This document shows, piece by piece, positions 3,958-17,755 of a stretch of DNA of 21,598 nucleotides; position 1 is the first letter of the stretch, and each line of letters opens with the position of its first letter. The DNA is from a virus. Both the position numbers and the translations under genes were made by a program. The notes below the pieces were generated by a model. It saw nothing but the letters and a program-made list of their open reading frames with translations, was not told the DNA's origin and did not search any database. The stretch lies in the IMG/VR virus record IMGVR_UViG_3300007344_000307, positions 1 through 21,598 of that record; one strand, written 5' to 3'.

Positions 3958-6363
3958 ATGAAGCTTAATACTAATCCTAAAAGTGCATTTCCAAGCCAAG
4001 TGGTCAGTGACGCTGAAAAGGCTAGCATGGATTATGGTTATCAAGTTGCTAGAGCAATCGAAGGCGAATGGTTTGGTCAAGGTAGACCAGGTAACCGCTT
4101 TATGACAAACTGGAGTAATTTTCATAACTTAAGATTATACGCAAGAGGAGAGCAGTCAATACAGAAATATAAAGATGAGCTTTCTATCAATGGCGATCTT
4201 TCATATTTAAATCTTGACTGGAGACCTGTTCCTGTTGTAGCAAAGTTTGTTGACATTATTGTCAATGGTATGTCTGAAAAAAGATATAAGATTAATGCTT
4301 ACGCTCAAGATCCTGAATCAATAAAAAAGAGAACTAACTACGCTGCTAACCTCATGAGAGACATGATGGCTAGAAAAGAGTTAGAGATGATACAACAACA
4401 AACAGGTTTAAATTTATTTAAGTCACCATCAAACATCGATCTTCCAGAAACAAAAGAAGAGGTTGATCTACATATGCAATTATCATACAAGCCATCAATT
4501 GAAATTGCAGAAGAAGAATTAATAAGTAATACACTTGATCGTAATAAATTTGAATTAACACGAAGAAGATTAAACTACGATTTAACAGTACTTGGTATTG
4601 CTGCTGTAAAAACACAATGGACAAAAGCTAGTGGAGTTGAAATAAAGTATTGTGATCCTGCCAAAATGGTATGGTCATATACCGAAGATCCAAACTTTGA
4701 TGATTTATATTATGTTGGAGAAGTAAAACTTATGCACATCTCCGAGGTTAAAAAGCAGTTTCCATATTTATCAGATGAAGATTTAATTGAGATACAAAAC
4801 TATCAAGGTACTAATCAATACTTGATGGGTTGGCAAGAATATAGTGACGATGTTGTAGCTGTACTTTTCTTTGAATATAAAACATATTCTAATCAAGTAT
4901 TTAAATTAAAGAAAGGTGGTTATGGTTTGGAAAAAGCTATTGAAAAAGACGACACGTTTAATCCACCAGAAAATGATACATTTAAAAGAGTATCAAGATC
5001 TATTGAAACACTTTATAGTGGTGCAAAAATTTTAGGTTATGAAAAAATGCTAGACTGGGGACTAGCAAAAAACATGACAAGACCTAAAGCTGATTTGACA
5101 AAGGTTAATATGAACTATGCAATGTCAGCACCAAGAATGTACAAAGGTCGTATTGATTCTACAGTAAATAGAATTACTGGCTTTGCTGATATGATCAATA
5201 TTACAAATCTTAAAATTCAGCAGGTATTATCTAAAGTTGTCCCAGATGGTGTGTTCTTAGATGTAGACGGTTTAGCTGAAGTTGATCTCGGTAATGGAAC
5301 AGCATATAGTCCACAAGAGGCACTTAATATGTATTTCCAAACTGGTAGTATAATTGGTAGATCATTAACACAAGATGGTGATCTCAATAGAGGTAAAGTA
5401 CCAGTGCAAGAACTTCAATCTTCTAATGGTCAGGCTAAAATTGGTTCTTTAATTAATACATATCAATATTATTTACAATTAATTAGAGACGCAACTGGAT
5501 TAAACGAAGCACGTGATGGTAGTATGCCGAAAGAAGACATGCTCGTAGGATTGCAGAAGTTAGCCGCTAACGCATCTAATGTTGCCACTAGACATATTAT
5601 GCAGGCTAGTCTTTATTTGATCGCTAGAACGTGCGAGAATCTTTCGTTAAGAATATCTGATTCATTAGAATTTGCGTTAACTAAAAATGCACTTGAAAAT
5701 GCAATATCTTCATATAATGTATCAACATTGGAAGAAATGAAAGATATTCATCTTCATGATTTTGGTATTTACTTACAATTAGAGCCAGAAGATGAAGACA
5801 AAGTACAATTGGAGCAAAATATACAAGTTGCACTTCAAACTGGAGGTATTGATCTTGAAGATGCTATTGACATTAGAGAAGTTCACAACATTAAGCTTGC
5901 TAATGAAATGCTAAAGCAAAAGCGTAAGAAAAAACTACAACGTGAACAGCAAACGCAGCAACAAAATATTCAAATGCAAGCTCAAGCAAACGCTCAGGCA
6001 AGTGAAAAAGCAGCTATGGCAGAAGTTCAAAAGCAACAAGCTCTTACTCAAGAAAAAGTTAATATTGAACAAGCTAAGTCACAATTTGAAATACAGCGCC
6101 TTAGAGAAGAGGCTAATATTAAAAGAGAGCTAATGCAAGTAGAGTTTGATTTTAATATGCAGTTGGCGCAAGTGCAAGCTAATTCTAAAATGAGTGTAGA
6201 GAATGCTAAAGAAGATAGAAAAGATAAGAGAACAAAACTTCAAGCAACTCAACAAAGTGAGTTAATTGATCAAAGAAAAAACAATACATTACCTAAAAAC
6301 TTTGAGTCTTCAGGACAAGATACTTTAGGTGGTTTTGGTTTAGAGCAGTTTGAACCAAGATAA
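3958..6363 (+). CDS. portal protein
   Basis: An 801-residue protein directly after TerL, the usual place for the portal, which forms the dodecameric DNA channel at the head vertex. The N-terminal region has portal-like features: NLRLYARGEQSIQKYKDEL, then WRPVPVVAKFVDIIVNGMSE, where polypeptide wraps the conserved core, and later VLGIAAVKTQW and VEIKYCDPAKMVWSYTEDP. Residues about 645-775 form a very long helix rich in Gln, Glu, Lys and Ala, the expected C-terminal barrel or crown that projects into the capsid. The extreme C-terminus (TLGGFGLEQFEPR) is glycine-rich and flexible. The size suits crAss-like and related podovirus portals. The assignment rests on gene order, length and sequence pattern together. 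Confidence 0.88.
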   Translation: MKLNTNPKSAFPSQVVSDAEKASMDYGYQVARAIEGEWFGQGRPGNRFMTNWSNFHNLRLYARGEQSIQKYKDELSINGDLSYLNLDWRPVPVVAKFVDIIVNGMSEKRYKINAYAQDPESIKKRTNYAANLMRDMMARKELEMIQQQTGLNLFKSPSNIDLPETKEEVDLHMQLSYKPSIEIAEEELISNTLDRNKFELTRRRLNYDLTVLGIAAVKTQWTKASGVEIKYCDPAKMVWSYTEDPNFDDLYYVGEVKLMHISEVKKQFPYLSDEDLIEIQNYQGTNQYLMGWQEYSDDVVAVLFFEYKTYSNQVFKLKKGGYGLEKAIEKDDTFNPPENDTFKRVSRSIETLYSGAKILGYEKMLDWGLAKNMTRPKADLTKVNMNYAMSAPRMYKGRIDSTVNRITGFADMINITNLKIQQVLSKVVPDGVFLDVDGLAEVDLGNGTAYSPQEALNMYFQTGSIIGRSLTQDGDLNRGKVPVQELQSSNGQAKIGSLINTYQYYLQLIRDATGLNEARDGSMPKEDMLVGLQKLAANASNVATRHIMQASLYLIARTCENLSLRISDSLEFALTKNALENAISSYNVSTLEEMKDIHLHDFGIYLQLEPEDEDKVQLEQNIQVALQTGGIDLEDAIDIREVHNIKLANEMLKQKRKKKLQREQQTQQQNIQMQAQANAQASEKAAMAEVQKQQALTQEKVNIEQAKSQFEIQRLREEANIKRELMQVEFDFNMQLAQVQANSKMSVENAKEDRKDKRTKLQATQQSELIDQRKNNTLPKNFESSGQDTLGGFGLEQFEPR

Positions 6364-9978: not shown

Positions 9979-11001
9979 ATGGCTATAAATGTTAATCAAG
10001 TCTATAAGACTGTACTATCAATATTAAATAAAGAGCAGAGAGGATATATTACACCTGATGAGTTTAACAAACTAGCCACTCAGGTTCAGCTAGAAATGTT
10101 TGAAAATTATTCAGACGACCTGAACCAACTTGTACGCGTACCACAAACAGATATGGATTATTCTGATCGCGTTATGAACGTCGATGAGAAGCTATCTGTT
10201 TTTAAAAGATTTGGAACTGGAACGTACGATAATTCTACAACACCAGCAACTCCATTTTTTACACTCCCAACGGATTTATATAGACTAGGCGCAGTTACAT
10301 ATACTGGATTAAACAGTAAGGTAGTTGAATTACAGCGTCAACAACGTAATGAGTTTTACAATATACAAAACTCTCCACTTACAGCATCAACATTAGATTT
10401 CCCTTCTTATTTGTATGAAAATGAAAGAATGTATGTTAGACCAACTAGCATAACAAGCAGCATATCAGTTGATTACTTAAAAAAGCCAGATGATGTACGT
10501 TGGGGCTATAGCTTAGGTAGTCTTGGTCAATATATATATGACTCAACAACTTATGGTGCTAATTTACTAAACACAGGAACAAGTACACTTACTAATTCAA
10601 TTACAACAGCATTGGCTGGTGGATCCGCTGGTACATATACTTATCTACCGTATAGTGGTGGTAGTGGAACAGGTCTTGTTATGAATATAACAGCAACTAA
10701 CGCAACAACGTGTACAATAGATGTAATAACAGCTGGAACTGGTTATGCTGTAGGAGATGTACTTACAATTGATAATGACGAAATTGGTGTTGGTAGTACT
10801 GGTCCAGTAATAACATTAACAGCTGCTAATTTCAATAATAATAGCACATATGGATCTACAGATGTTGAACTTCATGTTTCAGAGAGAGATGATTTCATTA
10901 TTAATGTACTGAAATATTGTGGCGTTGTTATTAGAGACCCACAAGTAGTACAATTTGCAGCTAATGAAGCACAAAAAGACGAAGTAACTGAAAAAAGATA
11001 A
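9979..11001 (+). CDS. neck/ring-type connector protein with inserted beta module
   Basis: A 340-residue protein. The N-terminal helical region (INVNQVYKTVLSILNKEQRG, TPDEFNKLATQVQLEMFENY) and the middle part (ELQRQQRNEFYNIQNSPLT, YLYENERMYVRPTSI, VDYLKKPDDVRWGY) match a family I recall from crAss-like and marine podovirus-type structural blocks, where it lies between head and tail genes. The C-terminal portion (ELHVSERDDFIINVLKYCGV, VIRDPQVVQFAANEAQ) is helical. This suits head-tail connector or ring proteins that stack below the portal. Residues about 213-285 interrupt the family pattern with a glycine- and threonine-rich beta module that recurs in two downstream proteins. The next gene starts six bases after the stop. 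The structural role is well supported by context; the exact ring identity is not resolved. Confidence 0.75.
   Translation: MAINVNQVYKTVLSILNKEQRGYITPDEFNKLATQVQLEMFENYSDDLNQLVRVPQTDMDYSDRVMNVDEKLSVFKRFGTGTYDNSTTPATPFFTLPTDLYRLGAVTYTGLNSKVVELQRQQRNEFYNIQNSPLTASTLDFPSYLYENERMYVRPTSITSSISVDYLKKPDDVRWGYSLGSLGQYIYDSTTYGANLLNTGTSTLTNSITTALAGGSAGTYTYLPYSGGSGTGLVMNITATNATTCTIDVITAGTGYAVGDVLTIDNDEIGVGSTGPVITLTAANFNNNSTYGSTDVELHVSERDDFIINVLKYCGVVIRDPQVVQFAANEAQKDEVTEKR
10615..10833 (+). other. beta module copy 1 (in the first neck protein)
   Basis: Encodes residues about 213-285: GTYTYLPYSGGSGTGLVMNI, then TIDVITAGTGYAVGDVLTID, an acidic turn with the 'EIG' motif, and PVITLTAANF. It shares its order of motifs with copies at 12829 and 16709: TYT, a Gly-rich turn, a strand pair, G-Y/F-x-x-GD-x-[IL]-TI, then a closing hydrophobic strand. 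Confidence 0.65.
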
Positions 11002-11007
11002 TAGAAC

Positions 11008-12210
11008 ATGGAAATTCCAGGAACTGGCTTAATTAACGAAACTAACGAAGAGTATTACATTGGTCAAAAAGTATTTGATGTACAAGTAAGCCAAACTGAA
11101 TTTACTACCGCATTTAATACAGATCTCACCGATGGTATTGCTAATGAATATCCGCAAAACTATTATCTACAAACAAGTAGTGATAGCGGTGTTACATGGG
11201 TTACTGTTGCATCTGAAGTAAAAACTGGAACAACAAAAACTATTGTATCTGGAACAAACTCTGTACCAGTTGCGATCACTGGACCAATACTTGTAAGAGT
11301 TGCTTTATTTATTACAGCGGCTGAAGACAATTACGGTGGGTATGCTTTTATTAAACTAGGTGACATTATAAATAATTTTTTAGTTGCATATGTTGGCGCT
11401 GGAAAACTTGTGCCTAGCGTAAAAAGAACTGACGTTATATTTCACGCTAAAAGAGGTTTACAAGAATTTAGCTACGACACACTAAAGAGTGTTAAGTCAC
11501 AAGAGTTTTCAATGCCAAGTAGCTTAAGCTTTCCACTTCCACAAGATTATGTGAACTATGTAAGAGTTTCTGCTATTGATAACTTAGGCGTACAACATAT
11601 AGTTTATCCTGCAAATAATCTTACAGTTAATCCATATGAAAGTCCACAGCAAGATAGTGCTGGTGATTACGTACAAGATGATTACGGAAAAAATATACAA
11701 GAAACATCGGTAACAGAAACTAATTGGAAGGCAAACGATACAAACCAAATTACTGGTATATTTAATGCTAATCTAGCCACTCAAGGATATGATTGGTGGG
11801 GCTATGGATATGGATATGGAGTGGGTGGTTATGGTGGTTATTATGGTAGAAGATATGGTGCCCTGCCAGAATGGACACAACAAAATGGTTGGTTTACAAT
11901 AAATGGTCGAACAAATAGTTGGAACTTTTCTAGCAACCTTTTAAACAACACAATTGTTGTTAAGTATGTATCAGATGGTTTGGCTTATGATATGGATACT
12001 AGAGTGCCTAAAATGGCTGAGGAGGCAATGTATGCACATATTTTACATGCGATCGTGTCAAATAGAGCTGGTCAACCGGAATATTTAGTAAGAAGATTAA
12101 AGCAAGAGAGATCTGCTAAGCTAAGAAACGCAAAGATTAGACTTCAAAACCTAAAGCAAGATGAAATTGCTCAAGTTATGAGAAATAAGTCTAAAATGAT
12201 AAAACATTAA
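11008..12210 (+). CDS. second neck/ring-type protein with N-terminal extension
   Basis: A 400-residue protein. From about residue 113 it follows a recognisable phage neck protein pattern: AFIKLGDIINNFLVAYVG, KRTDVIFHAKRGLQEFSYDT, FPLPQDYVNYVRVSAIDN, then AYDMDTRVPKMAEEAMYAHI, NRAGQPEYLVRRLKQERSAK and a basic helical tail ending in MRNKSKMIKH. The conserved helical ends and central beta part suit a tail or connector ring component. Residues 1 to about 112 look like a separate beta-sandwich-like domain (YYLQTSSDSGVTWVTVASEV, ITGPILVRVALFI) that I regard as an addition. Residues 261-285 form a Gly/Tyr/Trp-rich loop. The next gene starts three bases after the stop. The neck role is inferred from family pattern and gene order. 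Confidence 0.75.
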   Translation: MEIPGTGLINETNEEYYIGQKVFDVQVSQTEFTTAFNTDLTDGIANEYPQNYYLQTSSDSGVTWVTVASEVKTGTTKTIVSGTNSVPVAITGPILVRVALFITAAEDNYGGYAFIKLGDIINNFLVAYVGAGKLVPSVKRTDVIFHAKRGLQEFSYDTLKSVKSQEFSMPSSLSFPLPQDYVNYVRVSAIDNLGVQHIVYPANNLTVNPYESPQQDSAGDYVQDDYGKNIQETSVTETNWKANDTNQITGIFNANLATQGYDWWGYGYGYGVGGYGGYYGRRYGALPEWTQQNGWFTINGRTNSWNFSSNLLNNTIVVKYVSDGLAYDMDTRVPKMAEEAMYAHILHAIVSNRAGQPEYLVRRLKQERSAKLRNAKIRLQNLKQDEIAQVMRNKSKMIKH

Positions 12211-12213
12211 TTT

Positions 12214-15200
12214 ATGCCAGAAGTTAGAAATGTCTTCCTAAAAGGGAAGATGAATAAAGATGTTAATGGTAGATTACTAACTCAAGGAGAGTATATTGAC
12301 GCTAGGAATATTTCTACAAACGATGACTTAAGTGGTAATTCCGGTTTAGCAGAAAATGTTAATGGTAATTCCTTGTTAACTAATTTTAATTTATCTGGTG
12401 AAAATTTAGAAATTATAGGTATCTGTATAGATACTTCAAAAAATAGAATTTTTGCATGTATTACCAATTGGAACGATACGTCGTCAGATGGTATATCAAA
12501 TTTTGCAAGTAGCGGCTCTTCGCACTATATATGCATGTATGATAACGCAGAACAAGTTAGTTACATTCTTGTTTCTGGTAATTTTTTAAACTTTAGCAAG
12601 ACTAGTCCAGTACTAAACATGCAGGTACTAGAAGATTTATTATTTATATCTGATAATAGAAATCAACCAAGAAAAATCAACGTTGAAACTGCTAAAGCAG
12701 ATCCTTCTTATTACTTCAAAGAAGAGCACATATCCGTAGCTAAGTATTATCCATATCAACAAGCTAATGTAGCAAAGTTGTCTAGTAATGGAGAGTTACT
12801 TATAAATTCAGAGTTATTAATAACTAAAAACACAACTGGATTAACACCAACAACTGCTACTTATACTGGCGTTATTCCTTCATCTACTAGTGGCTCCGGT
12901 GTTGGTTCACAGTTTACAATAGAAGTAATTAGTGGTTCAGTTGTTGAAGCTAAAGTCTCTGCAGTTGGTTCTTCATTTGATATTGGTGATACAATTACTA
13001 TTGACGGATCTTCTATAGGTGGTACTACTGTTATTAACGATGTTACATTAACCGTTTTAATGGAAAATATGAAACAAGATCCAACTATGAAGGATTGTGT
13101 TTCTGAAACATTACCAGCATCAACAACGGTAACAACTACGGGTGGTACATTATCTTTATCGCCTGGAGCTGGTGGAGTAGTAACTATACTTACACCTATT
13201 GATGCAAACTGGAAAGGATCAAGAATAACAACAAGTACAATAACTGTACAAAACAATGTTAATATACAACAAGCCTACACTGGTACAACTAGTTTACCAT
13301 TAGTGAATAATGGAACTTCTCCTATTACCATAAGTTCAGGAACTACAATTACGGTTGGAGCAAATCCATATTATGACGTGGATTATAATGGAGATGAAGA
13401 CTATTTGTCAGATAAGTTTGTACGTTTAAGTTATAGATTTAAATATGATGATGGTGAATATTCTATTATAGCTCCATTTACACAACACATATTTATTCCA
13501 AAACAAGATGGATATTTTTTAGACGAAAATTTTCCAGCAGATATTGAAGCCGATAATAGTGATGAAAATAGCGCTATAAAAAGTACAATCATTGCGTTTT
13601 TTGAAAACAAAGTAAACTGTGTTGAATTAGCAATAAATTTGCCGGAAGGAGTTGATACACCAGCAGATTTATATGAGCAACTTAAAGTTACAGATATTGA
13701 TATTCTTTATAAAGAATCTGATCAGACATCAATTAAAGTTTTAGATACAATTACGCAATCACAGTTAGCGTTATCATCTACGCCTCACCAGTATATTTAC
13801 GAATACAAAGCAAGTTCACCGATAAGGGTATTACCAAATAAAGAAATTACTAGAGCTTCAGATAAAGTACCAATTAGAGCAAAAGCTCAAGAAATATCTG
13901 GCAACAGGGTTATGTATGGAAATTATGTTGCAAGAAGTTCTAGACCACAAACATTAAACTATAATGTTTTAGCTGGTGAAAAAGATGATTTTGGAACTTT
14001 TAATTCTATTAATAAAACACAATATCCAAACCACTCTTTAAAGCAAAATAGATCATATAAAATTGGTGTTGTTCTTTGCGATAAGTTTGGTAGACAGTCT
14101 GATGTTATTACTTCTGAAAACTCTATAGTATATAATAATTATAGAACATCAACAACTGGTTTTTTAACATCTACAGATACTTGGCTTGGTGACTCACTTA
14201 AAATAATTTGGAACTCTGCTATCCCTAGTCAAATAGACGAACCTGGTTATGTCGGTTTATATAGCGATACAAATCCACTAGGTTGGTATAGTTACAAAGT
14301 TGTTGTTCAACAAAAAGAACAAGACTATTATAATGTATTTTTACCAACAATACTAAATAATTATCCATCTAGTCCTGCTTCAAATGACGAAGTATCACAT
14401 ATAACGTTATTTAGTGATAATATAAATAAAGTACCTAGAGATTTAAGAGAAGTTGGACCACAAGACATAGTATACTCTAGTTCTGTTGATTTGTATGGTA
14501 GAGTGCAAAATTCAATTTATAGTTCAAGCTCATCAACTAATATTCAGTTCTTTCCAGATTCAATACCAGACAAAGTTGTTAAAATTGGAATTAGAGATGA
14601 CATAGGATTGGATACAGATGAAGATGGAGCTGCATATGATGAATCTCCATTTTATAGTATTCCTACTGGATTAACACCACCTGGTGGTGCTGAGTTAAAA
14701 GGCGCTAATCCATTTATTGGCCAAGTACTAACACAGAAGCAAATAGGTGCGACAGGTGGTGCTAGCGGTGGTAATGTTACGTATAAAAATGTGAGATTAA
14801 ATGTATATGAAACTAAACCATTTTATTCTGAAATAGATATATTCTATGAAACAAGTACATCTGGTTTAATTTCAGATTTAAATACATTTATAAATAATAG
14901 TGCAAGTGAATTTACACCTATATCAATATCAGATTGGAACTTTATATTGGAAGAGGGTTTTTCAATTAATAGTTATGCTAATCCTGATTGGTTTGATGTT
15001 GTTAATTCAGAGGGCGTTAGTATAGCTTCAGCTAACTTAACTGGTACATTATTATCTGTTAGAAACGGTCCTGGTGGTGATGTTACCAATAAGTTTGTAC
15101 TAGAACAAGATCCTGTAAGTTATAAATTTAAAATAAAAACTAATTCATATTTTATATATACATCTGGAAGTAATTACGTTGACAATTATCAATTTAACTT

Positions 15201-15753
15201 TAACTTCACCAATACTGTTTCTGGTGTTGATTATTCTAATAATATATTAATAGAATATCCAAATAGACTCGATAATTCTATACCTACATTCACAGGTGTT
15301 TCACCGTTTACCCCTGGTAATAAAAATGAATTTCCAACACCTGTTGGTCAGTGGCATAATATAATCTCTATGGATGGACAAAATGGTACTGCCGATCCGT
15401 CTATAAATAGTAAGAAAAATGGTTTAGTATGGACAATTGTTTCTGTACAATTTTATTGGGTTTATCAAGGTTTGTGGACTACATACCAATCTGGAACGGC
15501 AATAAGCGAATATCTTAGAATAGCCAATGATGCTGGTCAAACATATACTAACATTGCTGAAACACTACAATATGATGACTCGTTTGTTTGTGTTAATACA
15601 AATGCTACTGACCCAAGTGATTTTTATATTAATTATAATGATAGGACAGATACAGATTTTAGGGTTTATTTAAGATTAAGTGATGCTAGCGGTGGCTCTG
15701 GTTATCTTAGTACTCAGGCAAGAATAGACTTTACACTAAAAAGAACAAATTAA
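12214..15753 (+). CDS. large tail muzzle / stabilisation-type structural protein
   Basis: A 1179-residue protein, almost wholly beta-rich. The opening VFLKGKMNKDVNGRLLTQGE followed by YIDARNISTNDD is a hallmark, as I recall it, of large tail proteins in crAss-like and marine phages, often annotated as tail stabilisation or muzzle proteins. Further family-like segments are AQEISGNRVMYGNYV (from residue 558), YKIGVVLCDKFGRQSD (from 615) and YKVVVQQKEQDYYNVFLP (from 694). Such proteins form the distal tail nozzle that gates DNA exit. Residues about 206-286 hold the second copy of the shared beta module. The C-terminal third is Ser/Asn/Gly-rich with no recognised enzyme motif. Only one base separates its stop from the next ATG, and the two proteins probably assemble together. 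No signal peptide or membrane segment is seen. Confidence 0.75.
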   Translation: MPEVRNVFLKGKMNKDVNGRLLTQGEYIDARNISTNDDLSGNSGLAENVNGNSLLTNFNLSGENLEIIGICIDTSKNRIFACITNWNDTSSDGISNFASSGSSHYICMYDNAEQVSYILVSGNFLNFSKTSPVLNMQVLEDLLFISDNRNQPRKINVETAKADPSYYFKEEHISVAKYYPYQQANVAKLSSNGELLINSELLITKNTTGLTPTTATYTGVIPSSTSGSGVGSQFTIEVISGSVVEAKVSAVGSSFDIGDTITIDGSSIGGTTVINDVTLTVLMENMKQDPTMKDCVSETLPASTTVTTTGGTLSLSPGAGGVVTILTPIDANWKGSRITTSTITVQNNVNIQQAYTGTTSLPLVNNGTSPITISSGTTITVGANPYYDVDYNGDEDYLSDKFVRLSYRFKYDDGEYSIIAPFTQHIFIPKQDGYFLDENFPADIEADNSDENSAIKSTIIAFFENKVNCVELAINLPEGVDTPADLYEQLKVTDIDILYKESDQTSIKVLDTITQSQLALSSTPHQYIYEYKASSPIRVLPNKEITRASDKVPIRAKAQEISGNRVMYGNYVARSSRPQTLNYNVLAGEKDDFGTFNSINKTQYPNHSLKQNRSYKIGVVLCDKFGRQSDVITSENSIVYNNYRTSTTGFLTSTDTWLGDSLKIIWNSAIPSQIDEPGYVGLYSDTNPLGWYSYKVVVQQKEQDYYNVFLPTILNNYPSSPASNDEVSHITLFSDNINKVPRDLREVGPQDIVYSSSVDLYGRVQNSIYSSSSSTNIQFFPDSIPDKVVKIGIRDDIGLDTDEDGAAYDESPFYSIPTGLTPPGGAELKGANPFIGQVLTQKQIGATGGASGGNVTYKNVRLNVYETKPFYSEIDIFYETSTSGLISDLNTFINNSASEFTPISISDWNFILEEGFSINSYANPDWFDVVNSEGVSIASANLTGTLLSVRNGPGGDVTNKFVLEQDPVSYKFKIKTNSYFIYTSGSNYVDNYQFNFNFTNTVSGVDYSNNILIEYPNRLDNSIPTFTGVSPFTPGNKNEFPTPVGQWHNIISMDGQNGTADPSINSKKNGLVWTIVSVQFYWVYQGLWTTYQSGTAISEYLRIANDAGQTYTNIAETLQYDDSFVCVNTNATDPSDFYINYNDRTDTDFRVYLRLSDASGGSGYLSTQARIDFTLKRTN
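12829..13071 (+). other. beta module copy 2 (in the muzzle-type protein)
   Basis: Encodes residues about 206-286: NTTGLTPTTATYTGVIPSST, a Gly-rich turn, FTIEVISGSVVEAKVSAVGS, then SFDIGDTITIDGSSIGG and a closing strand LTVLMENM. The start 'NTTGL...YTGVIP' is closest to copy 3 ('NKTGL...YTGVVP'). Confidence 0.65.
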
Positions 15754-15754
15754 T

Positions 15755-17755
15755 ATGGCAATAACTAGAGAGATAACATATTTTAATTCTTTTGCCGTTA
15801 AAAAAGTTGTCGAGGACAATGGATCTAGTTTACCTGGTAAAGCAGTTTGGCCAAGTTTACCTTGGAACCCAAGCAGTTATCCCAGTTTTCCACTTAAAGC
15901 TGATCCAGCCCTTGTTGCTTATGATTGGTATATTGAAGAGTCTAGAATTAGAGGAGGTTATAATAATACTCAATTAGATCTAGGTGTTAGAGCATATATA
16001 ACAGAAACTAATGATGAAGAGTTTATTGCTAATAGCGGAATAATATATTCTGGTATTTATAATTCTACAACTGGTTTTAACGAAACAAATGTGTTTTCAA
16101 CAGGTGAGAATATTGAAAAACAATTAGATCCTAGGTATGGAGATATACAAAAACTATTTGCTTATGATACTAATTTAATAGTTTTTCAAAATGATAAAAT
16201 AAATAGAGCATTAATAGATAAAGACGCACTGTACACGGCTTCTGGAAATTCAGCATTGACATCATCTGATAAAGTTATTGGTCAAATTACGCCATATAGT
16301 GGAGAATACGGTATTAGCGAAGATCCTCTTTCTTTTGCTTTTAAAGGTTATAGAATTTATTGCACAGATAGAGCGAGAGGTGCTGTATTAAGACTATCTA
16401 GAGATGGATTAACAGAAATCAGTGGTTACGGCATGAATGATTTCTTTAGAGATAAACTAGGTGCTATAACTAATGACCTTACTGTAAGTTCAGTTGAGCT
16501 CACATTAATAACTGGTAATGCTGCTGGAACAACAAGCGGCGTGTTTCCGACTAACTCTATAATTTTTGAAGATGGAGTTGACGACTTAAGTAGTTTAGAA
16601 TATGGAATGTCTTCGTTATTTTCTATATACGGTAATCAAAACGTCATAGTAGAAGAAATGTTAAGTGTTGGTTCTTTAACTGGTAATCTTACAAGTAGTA
16701 TAACTTTAAATAAAACCGGTTTATCTAACGGAGTTTATACTGGCGTTGTACCGACTTCTGATAGAAATTCATACGGTCAAACAACTGCAACTGGTGGCAT
16801 TGATCCTAAATTAACTGTAGGAGTGTCTGGTGGAACGGTTACAAACGTTATTGTTACTAGCGGTAGTATATTGTATGCCGTTGGCGATGTTTTAACTATA
16901 AATGGTCTAGATATTGGTGGAGGTGCTTCTGACAATGTTAAAATAACATTAGTAGCATCGAACATAGATAATATTTCTACAACTCAAAAAAGAATAGTAT
17001 TCAATAAAAAATTATCAAACTTTCTTGGAGGATTAGCAGTTCCACCTACTGGAACATCAACTTTTTATAAAAATATACAAGATAAAATTATTGGTGGTTT
17101 TGATAACTATTCTGATAAATATGTTTTATCTATTCAAGATTCAAGCGAAGACTCTTATGATACTTTAACATTTAATGACGACAATAATTCTTGGACTAGT
17201 TTTTGGGATTATAAACCGTTATTCATGGCGACGTTAAATAACATGTATTTTACATGTGTAAACGCAGAAGTATGGAAGCATTATGATACGACTCAAGGAA
17301 ATAATTATAATAGCTTTTATGGATCTTTTTATCCGTCGTCTATAACATTTGCTTTTAATCCTTCAGTGCAGTCTTCTAAAGTATTTAAAACAATCGCTTA
17401 TGAGGGAAGCAATGGTTGGAATATACAAAGCATTATTAGTGATATTGATGGTGTTCAAGCAAATGGTAACAGTTATAATGATTCGTCCGCTTTCATATAT
17501 AGTTATGATGAAGGTTCATACGTGGAAAATGGAATTACTTATAGAGCTGGATTTAATAAGAAAGAAAATAAATATATGTGTAATATAATAAATAATAGTA
17601 CAATAAGACCAGAAGAAGTTATCTTTGGTGATCAAATATCTGGTATTAAAGGTTATTATGTTACAGTTACTATACAAAATGATGATACAACAGACCCTGG
17701 TGGATTAAAAAGCTTGTTTTCAGTATCATCAGAATATGTTTTATCTGCAAATTAA
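15755..17755 (+). CDS. tail/muzzle-type beta-propeller-like structural protein
   Basis: A 666-residue beta-rich protein starting one base after the previous stop. The N-terminal ~235 residues carry segments I associate with the muzzle or distal tail proteins of these phages: WYIEESRIRGGYNNTQLDLG (from 58), IIYSGIYNSTTGFNETNVFS (from 96), QKLFAYDTNLIVFQNDKINR (from 132) and LRLSRDGLTEISGYGMNDFF (from 212). The alternation of short strands with 'YDTNLIVFQ' and 'GYRIYCTDRARGAVLRLS' reads like propeller blades; a C-terminal 'TFNDDNNSWTSFWDYKP' suggests the same. Residues about 319-404 hold the third copy of the shared beta module. The protein may be the second half of a muzzle that is one chain elsewhere. 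Virion tail role likely; fold inferred. Confidence 0.72.
   Translation: MAITREITYFNSFAVKKVVEDNGSSLPGKAVWPSLPWNPSSYPSFPLKADPALVAYDWYIEESRIRGGYNNTQLDLGVRAYITETNDEEFIANSGIIYSGIYNSTTGFNETNVFSTGENIEKQLDPRYGDIQKLFAYDTNLIVFQNDKINRALIDKDALYTASGNSALTSSDKVIGQITPYSGEYGISEDPLSFAFKGYRIYCTDRARGAVLRLSRDGLTEISGYGMNDFFRDKLGAITNDLTVSSVELTLITGNAAGTTSGVFPTNSIIFEDGVDDLSSLEYGMSSLFSIYGNQNVIVEEMLSVGSLTGNLTSSITLNKTGLSNGVYTGVVPTSDRNSYGQTTATGGIDPKLTVGVSGGTVTNVIVTSGSILYAVGDVLTINGLDIGGGASDNVKITLVASNIDNISTTQKRIVFNKKLSNFLGGLAVPPTGTSTFYKNIQDKIIGGFDNYSDKYVLSIQDSSEDSYDTLTFNDDNNSWTSFWDYKPLFMATLNNMYFTCVNAEVWKHYDTTQGNNYNSFYGSFYPSSITFAFNPSVQSSKVFKTIAYEGSNGWNIQSIISDIDGVQANGNSYNDSSAFIYSYDEGSYVENGITYRAGFNKKENKYMCNIINNSTIRPEEVIFGDQISGIKGYYVTVTIQNDDTTDPGGLKSLFSVSSEYVLSAN
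16709..16966 (+). other. beta module copy 3 (in the second tail protein)
   Basis: Encodes residues about 319-404: NKTGLSNGVYTGVVPTSD, a Gly/Thr turn, LTVGVSGGTVTNVIVTSGS, then YAVGDVLTINGLDIGGGASD and VKITLVASNI. 'YAVGDVLTI' is identical over nine residues to copy 1. Confidence 0.7.

Follow-up and report, generated by a model that had tools for sequence, protein, structure and literature searches.

In an uncultured relative of the crAss phages, three virion proteins that otherwise bear no likeness to each other carry inserted copies of one small beta-rich module. Computation demonstrates that the copies are homologous, that they are insertions, that they can be removed without loss of the host family and that one of them is nested within an older insert. 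By dN, the module evolves about four times as fast as the proteins that carry it, and it has also been replaced in place. For its role we put forward, at about an even chance, a promiscuous accessory domain that would decorate the virion surface.

Results

The virus and its tail proteins

The window (the whole stretch of DNA analysed, 21,598 nt) is a virus fragment of 21.6 kb (IMG/VR record IMGVR_UViG_3300007344_000307) that encodes a terminase (phrog_6681), a portal (phrog_6547), a capsid-type structural protein (phrog_13704) and a tail gene cluster. By protein comparison, its nearest cultured relatives are the Cellulophaga phages phi38:1 and Calle (Pervagoviridae), the Flavobacterium elemo phages, Tenacibaculum Gundel and Maribacter Panino. 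An L008-like phage contig, L091 (CALKXE010000160.1), lies inside a Saprospiraceae metagenome-assembled genome, which is a weak hint of Saprospiraceae as the host. The features discussed below are listed in Table 1.

Table 1. Module copies, the proteins that carry them and the enclosing insert (window coordinates)
Feature	Position	Strand	Extent	Basis and remarks
Protein A, crAss-type tail-barrel ring protein, bears module copy 1	9979..11001	+	340 aa	phrog_14543; AF2 model vs phicrAss001 ring protein 7qoj_E
Module copy 1	10597..10833	+	A residues 207-285	Profile matches, alignments; insert with linkers about 10546-10857
Protein C, N-terminal muzzle part, separate gene here	12214..15753	+	1179 aa	phrog_14478, N-terminal part
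Module copy 2	12820..13071	+	C residues 203-286	Profile matches, alignments
Protein D, C-terminal muzzle part	15755..17755	+	666 aa	PF25729 crAss_MUZ_C; phrog_14478 positions 925-1095
Older, larger insert in D enclosing copy 3	16469..17077	+	D residues about 239-441	Residues 239-442 absent from L019-L023; shorter, module-free form in L009-L012, L014, L018, L024, L028
Module copy 3, nested	16697..16966	+	D residues 315-404	Profile matches, alignments

The AF2 model of protein A (15 sequences; pLDDT 78, pTM 0.67) has the ring-protein fold of phicrAss001, with helices and a beta-sandwich, and it matches the ring protein 7qoj_E with Z 13.9 (rmsd 3.8, 196 aligned; Foldseek 3e-6). The sequences of proteins A, C and D had no direct match in the PDB, and profiles of A and D gave chance-level matches only. 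The neighbouring protein B has an additional N-terminal domain of ~100 aa (window 11032-11322, residues about 9-105), which is missing from L012, L025 and phi38:1 and gives a weak F5/8 type C match (E 0.0019) in the window copy only. The relative L020 encodes a second A-B ring-protein pair (4629-5357 and 5365-5955) without the module, which recalls the multi-ring barrel of crassviruses.

Protein D matches PF25729 (crAss_MUZ_C) at 43.1 bits, above the Pfam cut-off of 27. Because proteins C and D match opposite ends of a single PHROG, phrog_14478, and because phi38:1, elemoF and Gundel encode the muzzle in a single ORF (about 1300-1500 aa), the muzzle gene is split into two here; in the window and its clade, C and D are adjacent ORFs in different frames and not a single polypeptide. 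A programmed frameshift joining C and D found no support, as the gap between the ORFs ranges from ~1 nt to ~50 nt across relatives. The C ortholog of L016 (8001-9080 and 9436-11856) breaks into two ORFs downstream of the module, owing to a frameshift, a stop or an assembly error.

Homology of the three copies

A preliminary description of this DNA had proposed that the proteins at 9979, 12214 and 15755 share one segment and are otherwise unlike each other, and both statements were borne out. When whole proteins were compared by blastp, A matched D at E=1e-6 (101 aa, 37%), C matched D at E=1e-7 or 0.005 depending on the direction, and C matched A at E=0.006, with the similarity confined in every case to the module segments of 79-90 aa. 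To avoid circularity, leave-one-site-out profiles were trained on a single site and run against all ORFs and reversed decoys. Training on the A site alone recovered D (4.4e-13) and C (3.5e-8), against a best reversed decoy of 0.75, and training on the C site alone recovered D (1.6e-9) and A (6.9e-9), against a best decoy of 1.2; a profile from the D site alone, built from two sequences, recovered C at 2e-6 but A only at 0.045, with its best decoy at 0.0027. The copies are just 26-38% identical in pairwise comparison, so that the earlier term 'identical' does not apply to them, and the entry NxTGL...YTGV that had been taken to link copies 2 and 3 is near the family consensus SITTN...GTYTGV and not private to these two.

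The domain has a conserved turn, G-x-G-Y-x-x-GD-x-ITI, and one loop of strongly variable length (D-model residues about 21-33). Conservation falls on structural turns of Gly, Tyr, Asp and Thr, and no catalytic signature was seen among them. The AF2 model of the D copy, built from an alignment with 58 family members (pLDDT 86.7, pTM 0.79), is compact and beta-rich, with strands in corresponding order; its alignment contains A and C copies, so that it is not an independent superposition test. The module is predicted to be a small beta-barrel of about 80-90 residues. The best matches of the A model and the D-copy model to solved structures are EF-Tu/eIF2-gamma domain 3 barrels, at a weak Z of 3.6-3.7, and a Foldseek search of the module against the PDB gave no significant match.

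Presence, absence and nesting of the inserts

Each of the three inserts is cleanly absent from some relatives whose orthologs are otherwise intact, and the view of a removable beta-rich module in the ring (neck) protein and the muzzle is upheld, as relatives without the module keep the family fold. Orthologs of A that span the site without the module measure 263-266 aa in L019-L022 and 230-256 aa in phi38:1, Panino, elemoF and others; protein A of L023 has no module at the window site and carries copies at another loop. In protein C, residues 186-290 are missing from L023, and residues 182-394 from phi38:1. Most of the clade has the older beta-rich insert of D, of roughly 80 aa, and in the set of sequences compared the nested module is confined to the window and L008. 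Whole-record scans found three copies (A, C and D) in L008 (63.6 kb) and two (A and C) in L028 (58 kb). Relatives also carry the module elsewhere in C, namely near residue 50-150 (L020), at about 470-550 (L059, L063 and L069), at about 680-830 (L014, L024, L031 and L032) and at 815-875 (L039), and several insertion sites are occupied in single genomes only. Direct repeats were sought around the three copies as a sign of a transposition scar, and none was found.

The closest relative found, L028, is 93.6% identical to the window in MCP, 93% in A and 98.5% in B. Where B ends, identity is still 95-98%, and where C starts it has dropped abruptly to 62%; C as a whole is 53% identical, and D is 56% identical over residues 1-324 and ~90% identical again from residue 560. 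The stretch of presumed exchange runs from window position 12210 to about 17440 when compared with L090 (relative L028), with abrupt breakpoints in identity. On the simplest reading, these breakpoints suggest that the muzzle was exchanged between close relatives and that the D module, present in the window and absent from L028, was gained or lost along with the muzzle allele.

Evolutionary rate and replacement in place

Across 36 A orthologs, the module exceeds the rest of A 3.8-fold in dN (the median over 73 pairs that are not independent and whose core dS lies below 1) and 1.4-fold in dS. For the window and L028, dN in A is 0.102 for the module and 0.011 for the rest, with dS at 0.297 and 0.329, respectively; the module is the least conserved part of A in this pair (80-82% identity versus 92-100%). 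Some pairs combine conserved A cores with very different modules, such as L043-L062 (core dN 0.041, module 0.556) and L035-L070 (0.046 versus 0.626), and in these the module has been replaced in place. In protein C, the module dN ratio is about 4.4 while dS is similar, from few close pairs (for example, 0.232 versus 0.053 for L010-L011). The dN/dS of the module is mostly below 1, yet well above that of the core, and positive selection is therefore not demonstrated.

Spread of the family and tree of copies

A search with A-type copies reached at least 62 viral contigs, and the family also occurs at other muzzle sites and in T4-like sheath, adaptor and head-closure proteins. Among the matches listed, the hosts besides A and C orthologs include T4-like tail sheaths (L047, L051, L085 and L089; phrog_23, Pfam Phage_sheath_1), a protein matching the head-tail adaptor Ad2 (L045), a head-closure Hc2 fragment (L061) and a structural protein (L067). 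In the marine sheath proteins the module lies in the N-terminal third; in the cultured Flavobacterium phage immuto, whose sheath is 55% identical to that of L047 over 75% of its length, no module is detectable in this protein. A structural protein of 1610 aa in L077 (5656-10485; also in L079) contains 13 tandem stretches matching the module. As sole query, the D copy found no relative in the viral contigs; in annotated phages it had no match, and the A copy had only weak Synechococcus phage matches (E 0.1).

Unnamed repeats in cyanophage and other marine phage proteins (phrog_6005, 32294, 5342 and 4527) match the module in sequence, with E down to 7e-8, and in predicted fold, with TM 0.6-0.67, and probably belong to the same domain family. 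They occur in large structural, baseplate-wedge and tail-fibre proteins, which, unlike the module hosts, are mostly very large. Searches of Pfam and NCBIfam gave neither a name nor a tested function for these repeats.

In a tree of 77 copies, which is weak with its 85 columns, grouping tends to follow the host site (A, C1, D or sheath) and not the genome. Copies from different genomes group by site, so the A and C copies are older than this phage; the D copy is narrowly distributed. The sole hint of transfer within a genome is that the C2 copies (the second muzzle site, in relatives) sit among A copies, with support of 0.82-0.86 in this 85-column tree. A recent burst of copies inside this genome was rejected, given the site-wise grouping and several synonymous differences between near-identical motif stretches of A and D. 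Thus, the mobile domain of the preliminary description is indeed mobile, but its spread within one genome did not hold, as the copies cluster by site and family members occur in the sheaths of myophages and in structural proteins of cyanophages.

Relation to domain I of the T4 sheath protein

The best match in a PDB profile search was T4 gp18 (motif YTISTPGSNYAVGDKITV, E 0.016). Of 13 sheaths scanned directly, six T4-like ones matched (5e-6 to 2e-3), and a profile-profile comparison with gp18 domain I aligned 22 columns at P 8.5e-7, with nothing past the motif; reversing or shuffling the columns gave 0.25 or worse. The Pfam family of this domain, PF22639, is the recurrent Pfam match of the module family (13 of 58 copies, all below threshold); against a gathering cut-off of 27 bits, the A copy of the window scored 15.4 bits and the D copy had no match. 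Because the match spans ~22 residues and lies below the PF22639 threshold, we treat gp18 as a functional lead and not as evidence of family membership. T4 gp18 is not among the structure matches listed for the module, which excludes nothing. Outside the motif, the strand order looks circularly permuted with respect to gp18 domain I; this possibility was set aside, as a permuted profile aligns the whole domain with no gain in score.

Discussion

Domain shuffling in the neck and tail proteins of phages is an established process (PMC10684548), and the module is a new, unnamed example of such shuffling in virions. Ig-like accessory domains of phages are likewise inserted into, and shuffled among, unrelated virion proteins, and weak surface binding has been proposed for them (PMC9230969); the module differs from them in having no recurrent Ig-family profile match and in giving weak EF-Tu-like barrels in a fold search. 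In phicrAss001, the ring proteins are dodecamers and the muzzle is a hexamer, and the muzzle protein gp44, whose length varies by insertions, contains the inserted Ig-like domains IG1 and IG2 (PMC10172136). These ring and muzzle proteins belong to the same families as A and D, although the module was not reported in phicrAss001 and the muzzle lies in two genes here. By homology, the virion would hold 12 A-modules, 6 C-modules and 6 D-modules, in place of the 'three rings' of identical modules described earlier.

We propose that this predicted beta-barrel domain, inserted into loops of ring protein A of the tail barrel and of the muzzle proteins C and D, would face outward, as judged by analogy with T4 gp18 domain I and from the crowding of the channel that twelve lumenal barrels would cause. 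It would bind a variable external partner weakly, by avidity, and the partner would most plausibly be polymers on the surface of Bacteroidota hosts. The proteins that carry the module would retain their barrel and gate roles. In favour of surface decoration, we count the homology of the copies, the clean absences, the unrelated hosts, the fast dN, the replacement in place, the swapped muzzle allele, the compact model, the turn-type conserved positions and the outward barrel of gp18 domain I. Fast evolution and swapping would fit adhesion to glycans or the host. Against surface decoration, gp18 domain I binds parts of the virion (the baseplate and retracted fibres) and not host glycans, dN/dS is mostly below 1, as relaxed constraint on a filler might also give, and no convincing match to a carbohydrate-binding family was found, with single copies touching CBM_5_12 at E 0.06-0.17.

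The main rival of surface decoration, which we regard as rather unlikely, is docking within the virion, in which the module would be an outer handle by which the barrel and the muzzle grip tail fibres or hub proteins for anchoring or retraction. Domain I of gp18 (residues 98-188) is an inserted six-stranded barrel that protrudes without sheath-sheath contacts and binds the baseplate and the retracted long fibres, and G106S is one of three mutations that inhibit fibre retraction in T4 (PMC3004832). The module, also a predicted beta-barrel inserted in virion proteins, though in different ones here, has a GSNYAVGDKITV-type motif in common with this domain, and G106S probably hits the glycine conserved in the motif (index 107 if the initiator Met is counted); moreover, rings R1 and R2 of phicrAss001 bear the tail-hub collar (PMC10172136). 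However, the match to gp18 covers just about 22 residues. The module also diverges or is replaced in near-identical virion backgrounds, where the core of A and protein B are 92-100% identical, which would be odd for a specific internal interface.

It is unlikely that the module is a neutral or stabilizing filler, that is, a tolerated insert in a surface loop that drifts fast or adds only bulk or stability. Gain and loss are frequent, its dN/dS is mostly below 1 but well above that of the core, and the sites used by single genomes point the same way; yet divergent genomes have long kept the module at the A and C1 sites, its barrel framework being conserved, and it recurs in many virion proteins of unrelated phages. 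Chance resemblance, with a common low-complexity beta pattern in segments integral to three different folds, is very improbable: beta sequences rich in Gly, Thr and Val do match widely (there were weak antibody matches in the PDB profile search), but with profiles from the A site or the C site, the matches at the remaining sites beat reversed decoys by many orders of magnitude, and the intact orthologs without the segments already contradict it.

A wider extension of surface decoration is that this unnamed, widely shuffled beta-barrel family is a general, rapidly swapped surface binder of marine phage virions, on ring barrel and muzzle, that mediates host interaction along the whole tail, with gp18 domain I a (possibly permuted) relative; in this general form we consider it doubtful. 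If true, host contact would be distributed along the tail, beyond the fibres. One unnamed family is common to the ring and muzzle proteins of podophages and to the sheath, adaptor and head-closure proteins of myophages among marine phages. The clean pairs with and without the module, together with its measurably fast evolution, make the role of promiscuous accessory domains in virions directly testable. In these uncultured phages, the muzzle and the ring module may be the parts likeliest to track the host.
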